Shown: piece after piece, positions 48,793 to 61,672 of the stretch | Layout of the letters: each line of letters starts with the position of its first letter | Numbering within the stretch: the first letter of the stretch is position 1 | Assembly (NCBI GenBank): GCA_023248995.1 | Contig: JAHFDN010000004.1 | Location: forward strand, 1-61,672 | Direction of reading: 5' to 3' | From: Candidatus Rokuibacteriota bacterium | GTDB lineage: Bacteria > Methylomirabilota > Methylomirabilia > Rokubacteriales > CSP1-6 | DNA length: 61,672 nt | Program-made: the position numbers and the translations under genes | The notes under the pieces: model-generated | What the model was told of the DNA's origin: nothing | What the model saw: only the letters and a program-made list of their open reading frames with translations | The model's database searches: none

Positions 48793-49950
48793 ATGAACGC
48801 TAAAATCTTGTTCGCCGACGACGATCCGGTGGTGAGCCAGTACGTGGAGGTGGTCCTGAGACAGGCGGGCTACACGGTGCTGCTGGCAGCCGATGGCGTT
48901 GAGGCGATGGAACGGGTGCGGCAGTCGGCCCCGGATCTGATCCTCCTCGACGTGATCATGCCCGGCCTCGACGGGCTCGAGGTGCTCCGGGCGCTCCGTC
49001 AGAACCCGCATACCTCCCAGATTCCCGTGATCATGCTGACGCAGAAAGCCCACGTCGAGGACCTCGTGAAGGGATTGGAGTCGGGGGCGGACGACTACGT
49101 GCCGAAGCCCTTTGTGCCCGAAGAGCTTCTGGTGCGCATTCATTTGCTCTTGAAGCGCAGCGAGAAAGTCCGGGCCCTCGGACCGCTCATGGGGGTGCTG
49201 GGGGAGTGGTTCTCGGTCCAGGGCATCGAGCAGCTCGGCCACGAGCTGGAGACCGCGCGGGAGATCCAGTTCCGTCTTCTCCCGCCTTCCCTGCCCAATC
49301 TCGCCGGCGTGGACGTCGGGGCCGCCCTGGAGCCGACCAAGAGCGTCGGCGGTGATTTCTACGATTTCATCCCGATGCCGGGCGGCGTCGGGTTCGCGAT
49401 CGGGGACGTTTCCGGCAAGGGGATCCCGGCAGCTCTGCTCATGGTGATGGTCCGGTCGCTGCTGCGCGCCACGGCGTGGGAGCACAGCGAGCCCGGGGAG
49501 ATCATCTCGCGGGTCAATCGCTTCCTCTGCCGGGATATTCCTCCCTCGATGTTCGTGACCCTGATCTTCGGGGTGCTGACGCTGGGCGACGGCCGTCGGC
49601 TGAGCGTGATTAACGCGGGCCATGCCAATCCGCTGCTCCTGCGGCAAGGGGCGGCGCCGCGGCTCCTGACCGCGGGCGGACCGGTCCTGGGCGCTTTCCC
49701 GGAGACGAAGTACACCCACGAGGACCTGCTCCTCGAGGCCGGGGACCTCGTGGCGTTCTACACCGATGGGCTGGTGGAAGCCGTGGATGCGTCGGGGCGA
49801 GCTCTCGGGGTGGACGGCCTCGTGGCCCTGATCGAGCGGCGGCGCGGTGAGCATCCCCAAACGGGCGCACGGGCCGTGCTCGACGAGATCAAGAGCCGCG
49901 GCCGAGGCGGGAGCCGGGACGATTGCGCGCTCCTCATCCTCAAGGCGTAA
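48793..49950 (+). CDS. Receiver-PP2C phosphatase (RsbU-like), first copy
   Basis: 385 residues. Receiver: FADDDPVV, phospho-Asp in LILLDVIMP, Lys in VPKPFVP; a linker; then a SpoIIE/RsbU-type PP2C domain with ETAREIQFRLLPP, SVGGDFYDF, GDVSGKGIPAALLM, NAGHANPLLL and YTDGLVEA. Phosphorylation of the receiver should turn on removal of phosphate from the STAS protein at 51663. Seven bp before a paralog with the same layout. Confidence 0.93.
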   Translation: MNAKILFADDDPVVSQYVEVVLRQAGYTVLLAADGVEAMERVRQSAPDLILLDVIMPGLDGLEVLRALRQNPHTSQIPVIMLTQKAHVEDLVKGLESGADDYVPKPFVPEELLVRIHLLLKRSEKVRALGPLMGVLGEWFSVQGIEQLGHELETAREIQFRLLPPSLPNLAGVDVGAALEPTKSVGGDFYDFIPMPGGVGFAIGDVSGKGIPAALLMVMVRSLLRATAWEHSEPGEIISRVNRFLCRDIPPSMFVTLIFGVLTLGDGRRLSVINAGHANPLLLRQGAAPRLLTAGGPVLGAFPETKYTHEDLLLEAGDLVAFYTDGLVEAVDASGRALGVDGLVALIERRRGEHPQTGARAVLDEIKSRGRGGSRDDCALLILKA

Positions 49951-49957
49951 CGGACCC

Positions 49958-51124
49958 ATGGCTGAGTCGGTTCGCGTCACGAAGATCCTGGTCGTGGACG
50001 ACAACCCCGACAACGTGGAGCTGGGCCGGGTGGTGGTGGAGAGCGGCGGCTATACCGCGGTCACCGCCGCCGACGGGGTCGAGGCGTTGGAGCGGGTCAA
50101 GGAATCGCCGCCCGATCTCATACTGCTGGACGTCATGATGCCACGGCTCGACGGGTTGGGGGTGCTCCAGGCGCTCCGGGAAAACCCGGCCACCGCCCAG
50201 ATCCCCGTGATCATGCTGACCGCGAAGGCGGCGGTCGCCGATCGGGTGCAGGGGCTTCAGCTCGGTGCCGACGACTACGTGCCCAAGCCGTTCGACGCGG
50301 CGGAGCTCCTGGCGCGAATCCAGACGTTGCTCAGGCGCAGCGAGAAGCTCCGTTACCTGAACCCCCTGATGGGCGTCCTCGGCGACTGGTTCTCGGCGCG
50401 CGGGATCGAGCGGCTGTCGCGCGAGCTTGAGGTGGCCCGCGAGATCCAGATGTCCCTCCTCCCCAAGGTGCCGCCGCCTACCCACGGGGTCGAGCTGGGG
50501 GGCGTCCTCTACTCCTCGGAGACCGTGAGCGGGGATTTCTACGACTTTCTGACGATGCCGGACGGGAGCCTGGGGATCTCGGTCGGGGACGTGTCCGGCA
50601 AGGGGATCCCGGCTGCACTCCTCATGATCATGGTGCGAACGCTCTTCCGCGTCACCGCCTCGGACGGCGACGCCCCCGCTCATGTGCTTTCCCGCATCAA
50701 TCGCTACCTCTGCCGCGACATCCCGCCCTCCATGTTCGTCACCATGTTCTTCTGCCTCCTGGGGGCCGACGGGCAGCTGGTCTACGGCGATGCCGGCCAC
50801 GTGAAGCCGATCCTGCTCCGACCGGGCCAGCCCCCCCAGACGCTGGAGGCCGAGGGGATGATTCTGGGCGCGCTGGAGGACGCAGAGTTCGACGAGCGCC
50901 GGATCCAGCTTGGCAAGGGCGACCTGCTCGCGCTGTACACCGACGGCGTTGTGGAGTCCGTGGGCGCGGACGGACGGATGCTGGGGATGGAAGGCTTTTG
51001 CGCCCTGCTCGAGGCGAACCGTCAGAAGCGCCCCCAAGCCATCGCCGAGGCCGTCGCGGCCGAGATCAAGAAAAGCCCGGGTCCTCTCCGCGACGACTTG
51101 ACGCTCCTGGTCCTGCAGGCTTAG
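49958..51124 (+). CDS. Receiver-PP2C phosphatase (RsbU-like), second copy
   Basis: 388 residues from the ATG at 49958. Same layout as its neighbour: VVDDNPDN, LILLDVMMP, VPKPFDA, then EVAREIQMSLLPK, TVSGDFYDFL, GDVSGKGIPAALLM, YGDAGHVKPILL and YTDGVVES. The two are clearly tandem duplicates but differ in many surface positions, so they likely take different inputs while using the same target. Confidence 0.93.
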   Translation: MAESVRVTKILVVDDNPDNVELGRVVVESGGYTAVTAADGVEALERVKESPPDLILLDVMMPRLDGLGVLQALRENPATAQIPVIMLTAKAAVADRVQGLQLGADDYVPKPFDAAELLARIQTLLRRSEKLRYLNPLMGVLGDWFSARGIERLSRELEVAREIQMSLLPKVPPPTHGVELGGVLYSSETVSGDFYDFLTMPDGSLGISVGDVSGKGIPAALLMIMVRTLFRVTASDGDAPAHVLSRINRYLCRDIPPSMFVTMFFCLLGADGQLVYGDAGHVKPILLRPGQPPQTLEAEGMILGALEDAEFDERRIQLGKGDLLALYTDGVVESVGADGRMLGMEGFCALLEANRQKRPQAIAEAVAAEIKKSPGPLRDDLTLLVLQA

Positions 51125-53822: not shown

Positions 53823-54998
53823 ATGATCCACCGCCGCTTCTTCAAGCCCCCCCGGGTCATTCCGCTGGCGCTCTTTCTCGGGACCTCCGCGTGGTCGTTC
53901 GTGTACGTGAGCCTGCCGTTCTACATCGAACGGATCTCGCCCGGCGATCCTGCCTCCACGCTTCGCTGGACGGGGTGGATCCTCGGGATCTCGCCGCTCG
54001 TCACCGTCCTCACCGGCCCGATCTGGGGCCGGATGGCGGGGAAGGGGAATCCCAAGGCCTTCTACGTGGCGGTTCAGATCATGCAGGGGATCGGCTTCGT
54101 CGGGATGGCCCTGGCGCGGAACCTGCCCGAACTCTTCTTGGCTCGCCTCCTCCTGGGGGCCATGGGGGCGGGCTCGACCTTCGCCTTCATGATCGCGGGG
54201 GGCACCCATGAGGACGACGTGCGTCGTGAAGTCTCGGCGGTTCAGTCGGCCATGACTATGGGCCAGATTCTGGGTCCCCTGGCCGGCGCCGTGGCCGCGG
54301 CCCGTATCGGCTTTGTCCCGTCGTTCGTCTTGGGCGGGGTGATCCTCTGGGGATGCGCTGGTCTGGTCCAGTGGGGGGTCCCGCCTCCAGAGCGCCTGCC
54401 GGGTGCGGGCGATGAACGACGCGCGAGTTCGTGGGGCCTGGTCGTGACGGTATGCTTCCTCGTTCTGGCCGGCTCGATCCAGGTGCTCTTCCTCCCGGCA
54501 GTGCTCCCCCAGATCCTTCCGCCGCTGGGCGTGGGCTCCACCGAGACGCTGGAGGTGGGCGGGCTGATCATCTTCGCGTCGGGGGTCGCCGCCGCGGTCG
54601 GGTCGCTGGCCGCGCCGCGGCTGGCCGACCTGATCGGAGAGCGGCGGACCGTGGTCTCCTTCTTGGCACTCTCCTCCGGCCTTCTCGCCTTGCTCGGGCT
54701 CGCGGGCAATGCCTGGAGTTTCGGGGCGCTGCGTTTCCTCCAGATGCTGGTCGTCGCTCCGATCTTTCCTCTGGCGGTGACGCTGATCGCGCGCCGGGCG
54801 GGGGGGGAGGCGATCGCCCTCGTCAACTCGTCGCGAATCGCGGCTTCATTCGTCGGCCCGGTGGTGGCCACCACGCTCCTGACGTGGACGACGCCGTCCC
54901 TCCTGTTCGCGCTGCTGGCCGTCCCGGGGCTTGCCTGCCTTCCCGTGGTGGGGCGGGGACGGACCTCGCGCCCAGGGGTCCGAGAGGGCACCCGGTGA
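53823..54998 (+). CDS. Major facilitator superfamily transporter
   Basis: 391 residues, twelve predicted helices, with a family-like loop after helix 2 (GPIWGRMAGKGNPK) and DLIGERRTVVSF between the halves. Drug or metabolite efflux type; substrate unknown. It lies 12 bp after the permease and overlaps the ATPase start by 4 bp (GTGA), so it is fully inside the ABC operon, which is unusual. Confidence 0.85.
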   Translation: MIHRRFFKPPRVIPLALFLGTSAWSFVYVSLPFYIERISPGDPASTLRWTGWILGISPLVTVLTGPIWGRMAGKGNPKAFYVAVQIMQGIGFVGMALARNLPELFLARLLLGAMGAGSTFAFMIAGGTHEDDVRREVSAVQSAMTMGQILGPLAGAVAAARIGFVPSFVLGGVILWGCAGLVQWGVPPPERLPGAGDERRASSWGLVVTVCFLVLAGSIQVLFLPAVLPQILPPLGVGSTETLEVGGLIIFASGVAAAVGSLAAPRLADLIGERRTVVSFLALSSGLLALLGLAGNAWSFGALRFLQMLVVAPIFPLAVTLIARRAGGEAIALVNSSRIAASFVGPVVATTLLTWTTPSLLFALLAVPGLACLPVVGRGRTSRPGVREGTR

Positions 54999-56089
54999 GG
55001 GCCAAGCTCTCCTCGGAAGTCAGGCTCGAAGGGGTGGGGAAGCGGTACGGAGCGCTGTGGGCGGTGCAGGGGGTGTCGCTGGACATCCTGCCGGGAGAGT
55101 TCTTCACGCTGCTCGGGCCGTCCGGGTGCGGCAAGACCACGCTCCTGCGGATGATCGCGGGCTTCGCGCTCCCGGACGCCGGCCGGATTGTCGTGGACGG
55201 CCAGCCCATCGACCACATCCCCCCGTGGCAACGGGACGTCGGGCTCGTCTTCCAGCACGGGGCCCTCTGGCCGCACCTGTCGGTGAAGGACAACGTCGCC
55301 TTCGGGCTCCGTGAGCGGAAGCTGCCGCGGGAGGAGATCGCCTCCAGGGTTGCCGCCGCCCTGAGCCAGGTCGGCCTCGAAGGCTTGGAGGCGCGGCGGC
55401 CGTCGCAGCTCTCGGGCGGCCAGCAGCAGCGCGTCGCGCTGGCCCGGACCCTTGCAGTCCAGCCCCGGCTCCTCCTCTTGGACGAGCCGCTCTCCAGTCT
55501 CGATGCCCCGCTGCGCGCCCAGATGCGGCTCGAGCTTGCGCGGTTGCAGCGAGACCTCGCCATCACCACGATCTACGTCACCCACGACCAGGCCGAAGCC
55601 CTCGCCCTGTCCAACCGCGTCGCGGTGCTTCAGGCGGGATCGGTGATCCAGGAAGGAACGCCGGAGGAACTCTACCGGCGGCCCCGTAGCCGGTTCGTCG
55701 CGGAATTCGTGGGGGCGGCCAACCTCGTGCCGGCCGAGATCGTGGAGCTCAGGGAGACCGGGCTCCTGGTCGAGTTCGGCGCCGGCATCCGGCTTCCGGT
55801 CCCGGGCGACCCCGCCCGCTGGCGCTTGGGGAGCCGGACGCTTCTCTGCCTTCGCCCGGAGGCCCTGCGTCTCGAGGAAGCCGCGATCGGGCGAGGGATG
55901 GGGTTCGTCGGAACGGTGGCGTCCCGGGTGTTTGAGGGCGACCGCCACCTCTACGAGCTCCGGATCGGCGAGGGGACACTCCTCCGCGTGGAGATGCCGG
56001 CGCTGGGGGAGGGACGGATCTTCCGGCTGGGCGATCGGGTGCGGGTCGAGCTGAACCCCGAGAGCGCGGTGCTCCTTCCCCCGGAGTGA
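54995..56089 (+). CDS. ABC transporter ATPase, Fe3+/polyamine type
   Basis: 364 residues, GTG start overlapping the MFS stop. Walker A GPSGCGKTT, Q-loop FQHGALWPHL, signature LSGGQQQRVALAR, Walker B LLLLDEPLSSLDA, switch His in VTHDQAEA, and a TOBE domain (RPEALRLEEA, GTVASRVFEGDRHLYEL in part). It completes the importer with 47331 and 52116. The Q-loop HGALWPHL is a common variant in this branch. Confidence 0.92.
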   Translation: MRAKLSSEVRLEGVGKRYGALWAVQGVSLDILPGEFFTLLGPSGCGKTTLLRMIAGFALPDAGRIVVDGQPIDHIPPWQRDVGLVFQHGALWPHLSVKDNVAFGLRERKLPREEIASRVAAALSQVGLEGLEARRPSQLSGGQQQRVALARTLAVQPRLLLLDEPLSSLDAPLRAQMRLELARLQRDLAITTIYVTHDQAEALALSNRVAVLQAGSVIQEGTPEELYRRPRSRFVAEFVGAANLVPAEIVELRETGLLVEFGAGIRLPVPGDPARWRLGSRTLLCLRPEALRLEEAAIGRGMGFVGTVASRVFEGDRHLYELRIGEGTLLRVEMPALGEGRIFRLGDRVRVELNPESAVLLPPE

Positions 56090-56122: not shown

Positions 56123-56391
56123 GTGTTCTGTCTGGAAAGTCATGTTAACGAGAGCTGAAGGGCCAGCGGGTGGCGCAGCGAGCGGGGGGCCCCGCGGCGC
56201 GGAGCGGACCGCCTCTGGGCTGCCGGCATTCGGCATGAGCAGATACGGCGGAGACGAGGCGCCGGCCACGCGGGAGCGAGCACCGTGGGGCTGGGCCCCC
56301 GACGCGCTCACGCTGAAGGCGTGGCGCGTGGGGAGGGGGCGACAGGCCCTGCTGGCCAGCCTGACAGAACGCGACTTACGGGACGGAACAC
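56123..56391. mobile_element. MITE-like element with imperfect terminal inverted repeats and TA flanks
   Basis: 269 bp bounded by GTGTTCTGTCTGGAAAGTC on the left and GACTTACGGGACGGAACAC on the right, 15 of 19 positions matching as inverted repeats, and a TA on each side (56121-56122, 56392-56393). The TA duplication and size fit a non-autonomous relative of IS630/Tc1-mariner elements. The interior has no coding frame that I believe. Its right end is the last base of the convergent gene's stop codon. Confidence 0.7.
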
Positions 56392-57155
56392 TAGAGGGTG
56401 TAGGTCTTGCCCTGCTCGAGGATGTGGATCCGGGCGGGGTCGATCTTCTGAAGCTCCTCGGCGGTTTCCTCGAAGAAGTGCGGCTTGATGTGGTAAATCC
56501 AGAGCGGGAGGTCCGGCGGCATCTTCTTCATCTCCCGGCCGAGCATGGCCGGGGTGAGGTGCTTCGACGCGCGCGCCAGGCCGTCCAGACGGTTGGGGAA
56601 CGCGGTCTCGACGAGCACGACCTTGAGCCCCCGGAGCCCGCGGGCGGTCTCCCAGAGCTTCTCCGTGGGCCCGGTGTCGCCCGAGTAGACGAAGCCGGTC
56701 TCCCCGTCGTGGATGAGGAAGCCCACTGCCGGCACTGTGTGATCCACACCGATGGGGGTGACCCAGAGCTCGCCGACCCGCGACTCCACCTCCTCGGGGA
56801 GAGTCCGGTAGCCGAGGACGGCGTTCCGGGCGGTGGGAATGGTCGTGAAGTCGGGCCAGAGACTGTCGTTGAAGGCGTGCTTCTTGAGATCTTCCACCAC
56901 CGGGGCGATGCTCGCGGCGATCACCGGCCGCGGGCTCGACGTGATGGCGAGCGTGTCGGTGAGGAAGGCCAGGCCCGTAATGTGGTCCAGGTGAGCGTGG
57001 CTGAGCAGGGCGTGCTCGATCTCCCTCTGCTCCTCGACGTTGAGCGCGCCCGGCACGGTGCCCGCGTCCACGAGCACGCGGTCGTTCACGAGGAACGCCG
57101 AGGGCCGCTGCCCCTGCCCCTCGCTGCCGTAGACTCCCAACACCTTGATTTTCAT
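56391..57155 (-). CDS. Class II cAMP phosphodiesterase-like beta-lactamase-fold protein
   Basis: 254 residues with no signal peptide. Metal site LLSHAHLDHITGLAFLTD matches the class II cyclic nucleotide phosphodiesterase signature (HxHLDHxxG). Later metal-site segments: VDHTVPAVGF, YSGDTGPTE, IYHIKP. The class hydrolyses cAMP or related cyclic nucleotides. It is divergent from the adenylate cyclase gene, 97 bp apart. The stop TAG is formed by the TA at the MITE edge plus the element's last base. Confidence 0.82.
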   Translation of the reverse strand: MKIKVLGVYGSEGQGQRPSAFLVNDRVLVDAGTVPGALNVEEQREIEHALLSHAHLDHITGLAFLTDTLAITSSPRPVIAASIAPVVEDLKKHAFNDSLWPDFTTIPTARNAVLGYRTLPEEVESRVGELWVTPIGVDHTVPAVGFLIHDGETGFVYSGDTGPTEKLWETARGLRGLKVVLVETAFPNRLDGLARASKHLTPAMLGREMKKMPPDLPLWIYHIKPHFFEETAEELQKIDPARIHILEQGKTYTL

Positions 57156-57252
57156 TTGACGAATTCTAGTCTAGCAGACCCGGCCGGTCAAGCCTTGGAA
57201 TCCCGCGCGTCCGAGGATGCCCGCGCCCCCCGACCTGTGCTAACCTGCCAGC

Positions 57253-59325
57253 ATGAAGTTTTTCCCCGATGCGGCCCGTCCGTGGCTCATCGGAGCCGGG
57301 GTGGGGGTGGTGGTCGCACTCGTCACCCTGCTCGGCGTTCTCGAGTTCCTGGAACTCAAGAGCCTCGACCTTCGCTTCATCCTGCGCGGGCCCATCCGCC
57401 CGGCGTCCCCGATCGTCATCATTTCCATCGACGAGGACTCCTTCGACGAGCTGGACCTGGCCTGGCCGTTTCCCCGGGCGCTGCACGGCCGGCTGTTGGA
57501 CCTCGTGCATCGCGGGCGTCCCGCCGCAGTCGGCCTGGACCTCCTGTTCAGCGAGCCGAGCCTTCACGGATCCCGCGACGATCAGCTCTTCGGCCAGGCG
57601 ATTCGCCGGAGCGGTGACGTGGTGGTGCTGGCGGCCGACCTCACGGAAACTCCCGGGGAGGGCTTCGTCAAGAAGGACCTGAATCCTCCGATCAAGGCGA
57701 TCCGGCAGGGGGCGTACGCGTTCGGATTCGTGAACTTCCTCACCGATGACGACGGCTTCGTTCGCTCCGGAGAGATCAGCCGCCCGTACCAGAACGGCGT
57801 CGAGTCAAGTTTCGATCACCATCTTTACGACCTTGTGGTCAGGGCGGGCATCCCGGTCAAGCCGCTGCCCGCCGAGCCGTCCATTTTCATCAACTTCCGG
57901 GGGCCGAGGCGTACCTTCCCGGTGATCCCTTACTATCAGGTCGTCAACGGCGAAGTGAGGCCGGAGGCCTTCGCGGGTAAGATCGTCCTGGTGGGCGCCA
58001 CGACTCCCGCTCTCCACGACGAATTTCCCACCCCGTTCTCCGGACAAGAGAAGATGCCCGGGGTCGAAGTCCACGCCAACCTCCTGGAGACGCTGCTCCA
58101 GGGGAACACGATCAGGCGGGTGCACCTCTACGTGGGAGCCCTGCTGGCCCTGTTGGCCGCATTCGTCGCGGCGCTCGTCACCTCCCTGACGCGCCCGATC
58201 CGGGCCTTCCTCCTGATACTGGTGCTGGGCACGATCTACGCCGCGTGCATCTTTTGGGCGTTCTTGACGTGGCACCTGTGGGTGGACGCGGTTCCGATCC
58301 AGGTCGCGCTCTTCCTCGGCTACGGGACGACCGTGGTGGTCGACTTCATCCGCGAGCAGCGCGAGAAGCGCCGGCTCTCCCGGTACTTTTCCCCGGACGT
58401 CATCAAGGAAATCCTCGCGACCCGGAAGGAAGCCTCGCTGGCGGGAAGCCGGCGCCGCGTCACCGTCCTCTTCTCGGACATCCGGGGCTTCACCTCGCTG
58501 TCGGAGCGGCTCGCCCCCGAAGAGGTGGTGGAGATGCTCCGGGAATACCTCACCGTCATGACGGAGATCGTGTTCAAGCACGGAGGGACGGTGGACAAGT
58601 ACATCGGCGATGCGATCATGGCTCTCTACGGCGCCCCGTTCGATCAGCCCGACCACGCCGAGCAGGCGGTCCGGACCGCCCTGGAGTTCCAGGAGCAGGT
58701 CAAGGTTCTCTCCGAGCGCTGGGAAGGCCGGTGTGGGGTCCGGCTCCGCAACGGCGTGGGGGTCAACACGGGGGACGCCGTGGTCGGGACGATCGGGTCC
58801 CAGCAGCGGCTGGAGTACACGGCAATCGGAGACACGGTCAACCTCGCCTCCCGTCTCGAGGGGCTCACCAAAGAATTTCTCTCGCCCATCGTCATCAGCC
58901 AGAGCACCTACGAGGAGGTCAAGCACCTCTTCTACTCGCGCTACCTGGGCGAGGTGAAGGTCAAAGGCAAAGAGATCCCGGTGAAGATCTACGGGGTCGA
59001 GAAGGAAGAAGGCCGCCAGGCCGCGCGCGCGCCCCTCGACGGCCCGCTCACCATCGTGGACGAAGACGTGTCCATCGCGGCGGTGTTGACGGACTTGAGC
59101 CGCACGGGCGTGGCGGCGTGTCAGCTGCCCAAGCAGATTCCGGCGAATCGGATCGTGGGTATCCGGATTGACCTCCCGGGGCTGCCGGAGCCGCTCACGG
59201 TGGACGGCCGGGTGATCTGGAGCAGCGAGGATAAGGCAGGATTCGCGTTCGTGGGCCTTTCCCTCGAGGCCGAGAACCTCCTCGAGGACTTCGTCAAACG
59301 TCGAGGCCCGACCCCCAGTTCCTGA
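57253..59325 (+). CDS. CHASE2 - class III adenylate cyclase - PilZ protein
   Basis: 690 residues. One N-terminal helix, a periplasmic CHASE2 sensor (about 35-290), three helices (about 295-370), and a class III cyclase domain with metal Asp409 (FSDIRGFT) and Asp453 (YIGDAIM), substrate-selecting Lys449 and Thr523 (EYTAIGD), and NLASRLEG. Lys/Thr marks class IIIb, so ATP is the expected substrate. The last ~100 residues form a PilZ-like domain: R588xxxR592 and D614LSRTG619, 22 residues apart, the pair that binds cyclic di-GMP. The enzyme may thus make cAMP in response to an outside signal and be tuned by c-di-GMP. A terminator-like hairpin follows. Confidence 0.9.
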   Translation: MKFFPDAARPWLIGAGVGVVVALVTLLGVLEFLELKSLDLRFILRGPIRPASPIVIISIDEDSFDELDLAWPFPRALHGRLLDLVHRGRPAAVGLDLLFSEPSLHGSRDDQLFGQAIRRSGDVVVLAADLTETPGEGFVKKDLNPPIKAIRQGAYAFGFVNFLTDDDGFVRSGEISRPYQNGVESSFDHHLYDLVVRAGIPVKPLPAEPSIFINFRGPRRTFPVIPYYQVVNGEVRPEAFAGKIVLVGATTPALHDEFPTPFSGQEKMPGVEVHANLLETLLQGNTIRRVHLYVGALLALLAAFVAALVTSLTRPIRAFLLILVLGTIYAACIFWAFLTWHLWVDAVPIQVALFLGYGTTVVVDFIREQREKRRLSRYFSPDVIKEILATRKEASLAGSRRRVTVLFSDIRGFTSLSERLAPEEVVEMLREYLTVMTEIVFKHGGTVDKYIGDAIMALYGAPFDQPDHAEQAVRTALEFQEQVKVLSERWEGRCGVRLRNGVGVNTGDAVVGTIGSQQRLEYTAIGDTVNLASRLEGLTKEFLSPIVISQSTYEEVKHLFYSRYLGEVKVKGKEIPVKIYGVEKEEGRQAARAPLDGPLTIVDEDVSIAAVLTDLSRTGVAACQLPKQIPANRIVGIRIDLPGLPEPLTVDGRVIWSSEDKAGFAFVGLSLEAENLLEDFVKRRGPTPSS

Positions 59326-59680: not shown

Positions 59681-60424
59681 GTGAGAGGAGTTCAGAGGCT
59701 GTTGCTGGTAGCCCTGGTAGCGGCCTTGGTGGGGGCAGTGGCCCCCGGGTCCGCCCAGTCGGAGACCGGGCGAAGCGCGGGCGCCGTCGCCTTGGTCACG
59801 GGAAAGGTGACGGTGACACGACTTCAGGGGACTCCCAGGCCCCTCAGGCTCCACGACACCCTCCACTGGCACGACGTCATTGACACGGGCAAGGGCAGCA
59901 CGGCCCGGATCCTGCTTGACGGCAAGACGACGGTGACGCTCCGAGAGCTCTCGCGGGTAGAGCTGCGCGGGGAGGCAGTGGCCGAGGGGGTTCGTTACGT
60001 GGTGGACCTCGCGGCGGGGAAGGTTCGGATGTCGGTGGCGCGGATGCTGATGCGCCCGGGCGATCAGGTGGAAGTTCGAACTCGGAACGCGGTCGCCTCG
60101 GTGCGCGGGACGGATTTCATCGTCGAGACTGTTGAGCGGCCCGACCCGGCCAGTGCCTTCGGCGTGCTGGAGCTTCGGCGGGTGGCACCGGGGGTCCTGG
60201 GGGCCGCCACCCGTTCGGACGAAACTCGCGTGATAACCCTCGCCGGCACCGTGGAAGTGACGAGCCGGTTGGCGCCGCCAGGACAGGCGGAGCGCGTTTC
60301 TGCGCATGAGGCTCTGCAGGTAGGGATGCGGCATGATCCGACGCGGCTTCAGATCGAACCCGCCGCCCTCAGAGGGCTTCTCGAGGGGCTGACACCGCCG
60401 CGGCCGGAAGTAATTCCTGAATAA
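59681..60424 (+). CDS. Exported FecR-domain protein, first copy
   Basis: 247 residues, GTG start with GGAG upstream. Signal peptide VQRLLLVALVAALVGAVAPGSA. The mature protein has a FecR domain: VTRLQG, DVIDTGKGSTARILLDGKT (part), LRELSRVEL, and the conserved end NAVASVRGTDFIVE. FecR domains occur in sensory anchors, but this protein lacks the cytosolic anti-sigma part and sits free in the periplasm or on the surface. The tail from about 155 is Pro/Arg-rich. The next gene is a close paralog. Confidence 0.85.
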   Translation: MRGVQRLLLVALVAALVGAVAPGSAQSETGRSAGAVALVTGKVTVTRLQGTPRPLRLHDTLHWHDVIDTGKGSTARILLDGKTTVTLRELSRVELRGEAVAEGVRYVVDLAAGKVRMSVARMLMRPGDQVEVRTRNAVASVRGTDFIVETVERPDPASAFGVLELRRVAPGVLGAATRSDETRVITLAGTVEVTSRLAPPGQAERVSAHEALQVGMRHDPTRLQIEPAALRGLLEGLTPPRPEVIPE

Positions 60425-60618: not shown

Positions 60619-61672
60619 ATGGCAAAGGCTCCTAAGCTCCTCTTGGTCGGAATCGCTGCCCTTATGGGGACAGCGCCCGTGAGCCTGGCGGGTGCCGAGG
60701 GCGTGAACGCCGCCGGTACCGTGACCGCAGTGGCGGGTCCCGTGACGGTGGCGCGTTTCCAGGCCTCTTCCCACCCCTTGAAGTTTCGGGATCCCCTCTA
60801 CTGGCGTGACGTCGTCGAGGCCCAGCGGGACGGCATCGCGCGGATCCTGCTGGGGGGCAAGACGACCGTGACGGTGCGGGAGCTCTCGAGGCTGGAATTG
60901 CGTGAAGAGGCGGTGGCTGAAGGGATCCGGTACTCGGCCGAGCTCGTCGCCGGGAAGGTGCGGGCCTCCGTGGCGCGGATGCTGATGCGTCCCGGTGATG
61001 AAGTGGAGGTTCGGACGCGGAACGTGGTGGCCTCGGTCCGGGGGACGGACTTCATCGTCGAGACAGCGGAGCGGCCGGCCCAGGGGCGGCCGTTCGGTCT
61101 CTTGGGAGCCCGAGAGGTCGTGCAGGCGGTTCTCGATGGCGGAAACCCGTCGGTGGAGACGGTGGTGGTGACCCTGTCTGGCATCGTCCTAGTGTCGAAC
61201 CCTCTGGTGACGGCGGGTCGGCGGGAGCGAATCGGGGCGTATGAGGCGGTGCGGGTCAGCGGGGGACAGGATCCGGCGAGATTCCAGATCACGGCCGGTG
61301 ACCTGCGAGTTCTTCTTCAGGGCTTGACGCCGCCGCGCCCGTCGGAAGCCCGGAGCGGAGATAGGGCGGAAGCGGTGGGCCGGACGATTGAGCGGGCGGC
61401 GTTGGCAGCCTCTAGCCAGAGTGTCCCGCTAGGCTCGGCCCTGAGCAACGGGCAAGCCAGCGGCAGCGGCTCGACGCTTGATCAGGGGAACGGCAAAGCG
61501 AACGGGAACGGCCTGGCGCTCGGCCAGGGCGATGGTAAGGGCCAGGGCAACGGTCTTGCCCTTGGCCACGGCGATGCTCAGGGGTCAGTGGTCCCGCCGA
61601 CGCCCGCCGCTCAGGTCGCCGGCCCTGGCAACGGCCAGGGCTCTGCAAACGGGTTCTGGCAGAGCAGAGGCG
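60619..61672 (+). CDS. Exported FecR-domain protein, second copy (3' end outside window)
   Basis: At least 351 residues; open to the window end. I translated it by hand from the ATG at 60619. Signal peptide APKLLLVGIAALMGTAPVSLAG, then a FecR domain closely like the first copy: DVVEAQRDGIARILLGGKT (part), VRELSRLEL, RMLMRPGDEVEVRTRN (part), VVASVRGTDFIVE. It differs by a longer tail with Gly/Asn/Asp repeats (see 61504-61587). Tandem duplication with a new C-terminal low-complexity domain is the simplest reading. Confidence 0.85.
   Translation, partial: MAKAPKLLLVGIAALMGTAPVSLAGAEGVNAAGTVTAVAGPVTVARFQASSHPLKFRDPLYWRDVVEAQRDGIARILLGGKTTVTVRELSRLELREEAVAEGIRYSAELVAGKVRASVARMLMRPGDEVEVRTRNVVASVRGTDFIVETAERPAQGRPFGLLGAREVVQAVLDGGNPSVETVVVTLSGIVLVSNPLVTAGRRERIGAYEAVRVSGGQDPARFQITAGDLRVLLQGLTPPRPSEARSGDRAEAVGRTIERAALAASSQSVPLGSALSNGQASGSGSTLDQGNGKANGNGLALGQGDGKGQGNGLALGHGDAQGSVVPPTPAAQVAGPGNGQGSANGFWQSRG
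61504..61587 (+). repeat. Two 42-bp tandem units coding for a Gly-rich repeat
   Basis: Each unit encodes 14 residues of the form GNGLALG(Q/H)GD(G/A)(K/Q)G(Q/S). The DNA differs at several third positions, so the protein sequence rather than the DNA is kept. More units may lie beyond the window. Confidence 0.7.

Follow-up and report, generated by a model that had tools for sequence, protein, structure and literature searches.

Gene organization of the locus

The region analysed here (the window) is a stretch of 61,672 nucleotides from a member of the Candidatus Rokuibacteriota, a soil and groundwater bacterium. On its forward strand, an open reading frame (57253..59325) encodes a protein of 690 amino acids in which three Pfam domains score above the curated gathering cut-offs. 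They are a CHASE2 extracytoplasmic sensor domain (aa 18-306, 57304..58170; PF05226, 6e-54), a class III nucleotide cyclase domain (aa 401-574, 58453..58974; PF00211 Guanylate_cyc, 1.2e-28), and a PilZ domain (aa 588-682, 59014..59298; PF07238, 1.4e-13), all on the (+) strand. An earlier reading made from the DNA letters only (the sequence-only reading) had proposed a CHASE2 sensor, a cyclase and a PilZ domain in exactly this frame, and both its coordinates and its content, the sensor included, proved right. In the full-length model, a helix (residues 5-27) lies N-terminal of CHASE2 and three hydrophobic helices (292-312, 315-340, and 347-376) follow it; as read from the model, CHASE2 would sit between the N-terminal helix and the three later ones, which is the topology of CHASE2 receptors. 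Long antisense reading frames over the cyclase were considered as genes and rejected, as they are without support of their own, and we ascribe them to the GC content of 68%. Just 5' of the cyclase ATG lies TGTGCTAACCT (57228-57255), with no clear ribosome site; a similar sequence occurs in the four nearest relatives, and it is possibly an extended -10 box, with a leaderless transcript.

The sequence-only reading left out the genes around the cyclase, which include a cAMP-phosphodiesterase-like gene and genes for FecR proteins. The former (56391..57155, minus strand) is transcribed divergently and encodes a protein of the metallo-beta-lactamase fold, probably a class II cAMP phosphodiesterase judging from its match to PDEase_II (Pfam, 2.1e-9) and its HAHLDH site. 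A PDB sequence search matched it only to 3',5'-cyclic-nucleotide phosphodiesterase 1. The cyclic nucleotide-degrading phosphodiesterase family NF041851 aligns with it nearly end to end, but at 40.8 bits against a cut-off of 400, and so the protein is a relative of that family rather than a member. The divergent pair shares an intergenic region of 97 bases (57156..57252, not assigned to a strand), recognized from the sequence and from its counterparts in relatives. No CRP-like site (TGTGA-N6-TCACA) was found in this region, and the window is no richer in such sites than shuffled sequence; feedback through a CRP-like site at this pair was therefore dropped from consideration.

Downstream of the cyclase, on the (+) strand, are a secreted FecR-domain protein of 247 aa with a hydrophobic leader (59681..60424; Pfam FecR, 1.9e-12) and a second protein with a FecR domain, which shares 56% identity with the first, was located by tblastn, and has a frame running off the window (60634..61344; Pfam FecR, 1.2e-9). 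Among the neighbours scanned with Pfam, namely some of the open reading frames, with the second FecR frame partly masked, there was no gene for a TPR protein. By our count over 36 fusion loci, the phosphodiesterase gene adjoins the cyclase in 22, a FecR gene in 15, and either one in 32; among the matches listed, FecR lies downstream in all four Nitrospirota loci. Beside the phosphodiesterase are MFS and ABC-ATPase genes (53823-56089) whose order is conserved in many relatives, and the cassette thus stands in a stable neighbourhood. Elsewhere in the window, two response-regulator-SpoIIE phosphatase genes lie next to each other (48793-51124).

The cyclase site, the PilZ motif, and the joint between them

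In the cyclase domain, the metal-binding residues were assigned as D409 and D453, the substrate-specifying residues as K449 and T523, and the Asn/Arg transition-state pair as N530 and R534. D409, D453, K449, and N530 are invariant in a 57-sequence alignment, in which T523 is kept in 55 sequences and R534 in 53, and the same catalytic residues are present in CyaB of Pseudomonas aeruginosa. CyaB, Cya2, and CyaC are the nearest solved sequences in a PDB sequence search, and CyaB (3r5g, 1.8e-15) is also the best Foldseek match of the full-length model, with Cya2 among the near structural matches. In class III cyclases, ATP is specified by a Lys paired with Thr or Asp. Having the domain, the metal-binding aspartates, the Asn/Arg pair, and the Lys/Thr pair, the protein qualifies by its sequence as a class III adenylyl cyclase; ATP is its predicted substrate, from K449 and T523, and we infer that it acts on ATP.

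The PilZ tail carries both halves of the c-di-GMP motif, RQAAR (588-592) and DLSRTG (614-619). The second half, D614xSxxG619, lies at 59092..59109 (+). Strict motifs of the form RxxxR-(18-32)-[D/N]xSxxG arise in only 0.2% of shuffles of the C-terminal tail, so that the strict motif is not a product of chance; the Pfam match, the fold, and the conservation likewise rule this out. Among 39 cyclase-PilZ fusions, RxxxR is present in all, the strict motif in 27, and a relaxed second half ([D/N/E]x[S/G/A/T]xxG) again in all 39; in the other 12, the second half is weaker, with S replaced by G/A/T or D by E. By column, the first position of this half is D in 35 of the 39, N in two, and E in two, S is found in 29, and G in all. 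The column count for positions 588 and 592 is 38/39 because the motif of one sequence (L148, RLHSR) is shifted in the alignment, the motif itself being present. Across these fusions, R588, R592, and G619 belong to the best-conserved columns of the PilZ domain. In an 11-sequence alignment, where identity to the window's PilZ copy is mostly 27-44%, only these three, W656, and G663 are invariant; the motif is thus kept across homologues that diverge elsewhere in the domain.

When the PilZ domain was modelled in isolation with AlphaFold2, the mean pLDDT was 80.5 (core >90), and the best PDB matches in Foldseek were PilZ domains, with a probability of 1.00. These include the c-di-GMP-bound structures of MapZ (5xly) and Alg44 (4xrn/4rt0), and BcsA was also matched. 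A profile search aligned R588/R592 and DxSxxG with the same motifs of Alg44 and PA4608. It also aligned W656 with a Trp of PA4608 which we take to stack on the ligand; no open-access paper on a ligand-stacking Trp of PA4608 was found. The sequence-only reading had claimed an intact cyclase site and both halves of the c-di-GMP motif, and had named structure prediction of the tail as a check. The invariant D409, D453, K449, and N530, the presence of R588, R592, D614, S616, and G619, the conservation of the c-di-GMP residues across genera, and the predicted PilZ fold all agree with it.

The two domains are joined closely. The full-length model ends the cyclase with a strand at residues 577-583, shows low confidence over 586-589, and starts PilZ with a strand at 593-603. 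The hinge between the two strands (58999..59028, +), delimited from the model and from the conservation of RxxxR, carries R588xxxR592; in the model, only some five residues separate the start of this motif from the end of the last cyclase strand. The motif sits at the domain joint, a place where a bound ligand could shift one domain relative to the other. The model (pTM 0.52, hinge pLDDT <50) does not give a reliable cyclase-PilZ interface, and the arrangement of the domains is not to be read from it.

In keeping with the proposed joining of c-di-GMP and cAMP, the genome contains both messenger systems, with domain matches to seven GGDEF, 14 PilZ, four class III cyclase, and five cNMP-binding domains. 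PilZ modules seem to be common in this lineage. Other examples include a sigma-54 activator fused to a PilZ domain whose RRRYAR start looks canonical (PilZ-AAA-HTH_8; L005, contig C44 of the same genome, 1492-2928), a response-regulator-PilZ fusion (L007, contig C2, 1480-2226), and a protein with two PilZ stretches (L003, contig C39, 1420-2163).

Distribution and history of the fusion

The fusion is a conserved architecture. By our own count from the table of matches, its full-length form occurs in 40 of the 57 genomes of the window's family (Rokubacteria-type), and one further genome of the same class, outside this family, has it among the 95 genomes of the phylum. Named relatives with the fusion are Candidatus Rokuibacteriota and, among the matches listed, at least four records labelled Nitrospirae. 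Beyond these, a match spanning the fusion was found in two of 246 sampled genomes of the phylum of L069. At E<=1e-85, there was none among about 379 sampled genomes of the phylum of L102 and L100, where two largely identical samples count as one, and among the sampled genomes of the phylum of L072 only the L072 genome itself had one. L072 is probably misbinned, because it falls inside the Rokubacteria-type clade and stands on a 4.4-kb contig. A wide and ancient distribution was rejected, as sampling these last two phyla added no other fusion.

In a tree built from the CHASE2-cyclase part, the presence or absence of PilZ needs six changes, with gain and loss distinguishable only for L149. In this orthologue, VLPTSLDPEWAPTVAEYLSTRAK runs straight from the linker into the last PilZ helix; the PilZ core has been lost by an in-frame deletion and the cyclase is intact. 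Its tree neighbours L037 and L072 have the whole PilZ domain, which, with the linker abutting the last helix, identifies L149 as a natural in-frame loss. PilZ is also absent in some close relatives, and together with the L149 deletion this means that the domain is dispensable in some lineages. In the L149 genome (G018), the phosphodiesterase gene still adjoins the PilZ-deleted cyclase, which offers a ready-made natural control for the fusion. The tail of another sequence, L147, listed as matching to position 314, was found to be TPR-like and not PilZ.

Proposed function and relation to known systems

The protein is real and conserved and looks functional, and the sequence-only reading of a possible link from c-di-GMP to cAMP is supported, in that each of its predictions testable at the level of sequence agrees with what was found. 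We consider it probable that the protein is a two-input cAMP cyclase, whose output would be set jointly by c-di-GMP on PilZ and by the CHASE2 signal and balanced locally by the phosphodiesterase. We are also inclined, if only slightly, to think that c-di-GMP on the PilZ tail directly switches the attached adenylyl cyclase, so that in most members of the family one protein would connect c-di-GMP, and an envelope signal, to cAMP. The enzyme would be a membrane-bound, dimeric class III adenylyl cyclase that takes two inputs. On the outer side of the inner membrane, CHASE2 would read an envelope or external signal, possibly relayed to it by the secreted FecR proteins encoded alongside. PilZ would bind c-di-GMP via R588/R592 and D614-S616-G619. 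As RxxxR lies so few residues past the last cyclase strand, the ligand would reorder the hinge and move PilZ relative to the dimer of catalytic domains, thereby altering cAMP output. The effect could be of either sign; we lean, weakly, towards relief of autoinhibition, as in BcsA. The cAMP formed would act via the cNMP-binding proteins of the genome and would be removed by the divergently transcribed phosphodiesterase. Speaking against this reading are the weakened motif of 12 of the 39 fusions, the absence of PilZ from some close relatives together with its loss in L149, and the unreliable cyclase-PilZ interface of the model.

Many PilZ proteins work through partners, e.g., MapZ with CheR1 (5xly), and the domain may accordingly bind c-di-GMP without gating catalysis, either recruiting a partner or setting the cellular place of cAMP synthesis. 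The intact cyclase of the PilZ-deleted L149 would fit this explanation. However, there is almost no linker between the catalytic domain and PilZ, which suits intramolecular coupling, and no constantly present partner gene was seen among the neighbours of the fusion loci; we regard it as unlikely. It is quite improbable, in our judgement, that PilZ binds no ligand and serves as a module for structure or dimerisation, with the motif as a remnant. Degenerate PilZ domains do exist, and the departure of 12 of the 39 fusions from the strict motif could be taken in this sense, but RxxxR is retained throughout the fusions while most other PilZ positions vary, and the window's own motif is canonical.

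The link would also not run from c-di-GMP to cAMP if the product were cGMP or the cyclase inactive, a thought to which the guanylyl cyclase Cya2 gives rise by its place among the near structural matches. Yet in our alignment the Cya2 chain 2w01 carries Glu in place of the lysine, whereas K449 is invariant and T523 kept in 55 of the 57 aligned sequences, the two forming the class III ATP pair, and the neighbouring gene product resembles a cAMP phosphodiesterase; we hold this explanation to be very improbable. Direct control of an adenylyl cyclase by its own PilZ tail remains the reading that we favour. If it is correct, it would establish the reverse link, from c-di-GMP to cAMP, within one testable protein, and might directly wire together two signalling systems that tend to be studied separately. 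It would show how a PilZ-rich lineage joins the signals of surface life to cAMP control, and the protein would be a natural scaffold on which to build an adenylyl cyclase controlled by c-di-GMP.

The sequence-only reading knew of no studied example of such a protein. This agrees with the open-access PMC literature to the extent that it was accessible, where searches on CHASE2 and PilZ, on cyclases and PilZ, and on c-di-GMP action on cyclases found no paper on a cyclase-PilZ fusion; the accessible part of a review of c-di-GMP and cAMP regulation (PMC11139211) mentions no c-di-GMP-binding adenylate cyclase. The cassette of CHASE2-cyclase, phosphodiesterase, and FecR genes is already known, since the CHASE2 adenylate cyclases of Campylobacterota are reported in gene clusters together with FecR, TPR, and cAMP phosphodiesterase genes (PMC9239204). 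The locus shares with that cassette the CHASE2 sensor, the class III cyclase, and the clustered phosphodiesterase and FecR genes; it differs in the C-terminal PilZ domain of its cyclase and in having no TPR gene in the flank examined. What differs, then, is a PilZ input placed on a known cassette. In Burkholderia, FecR and CHASE2 are also found paired in connection with histidine kinases (PMC5192318). In Sinorhizobium meliloti, the membrane CHASE2 cyclases CyaD1, CyaD2, and CyaK act with the outer-membrane protein NsrA and, comparably, make cAMP on an outside signal via the envelope, but PilZ is not mentioned for them (PMC13001267).

Other CHASE2 cyclases share the CHASE2-cyclase core and have a C-terminal module of similar size (~95 residues), but theirs is TPR-like, looks helical, and ends in PPxxWDGV...K, where the window protein has PilZ. 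This module is found in many CHASE2 cyclases without PilZ (e.g., L083, L087, and L096) and seems to occupy the place of PilZ; some other CHASE2 cyclases are without any C-terminal module. With the cellulose synthase BcsA and other enzyme-PilZ fusions, the protein shares a C-terminal PilZ domain and an RxxxR at the junction with the catalytic domain. In contrast to them, its enzyme is a nucleotide cyclase, and its output would consequently be another second messenger. The closest single-protein link between the two messengers, in the accessible part of the literature, is the EAL c-di-GMP phosphodiesterase Bd1971 of Bdellovibrio, which senses cAMP (PMC6717892); it too links cAMP and c-di-GMP in one polypeptide, but in the opposite direction, with cAMP controlling the breakdown of c-di-GMP.
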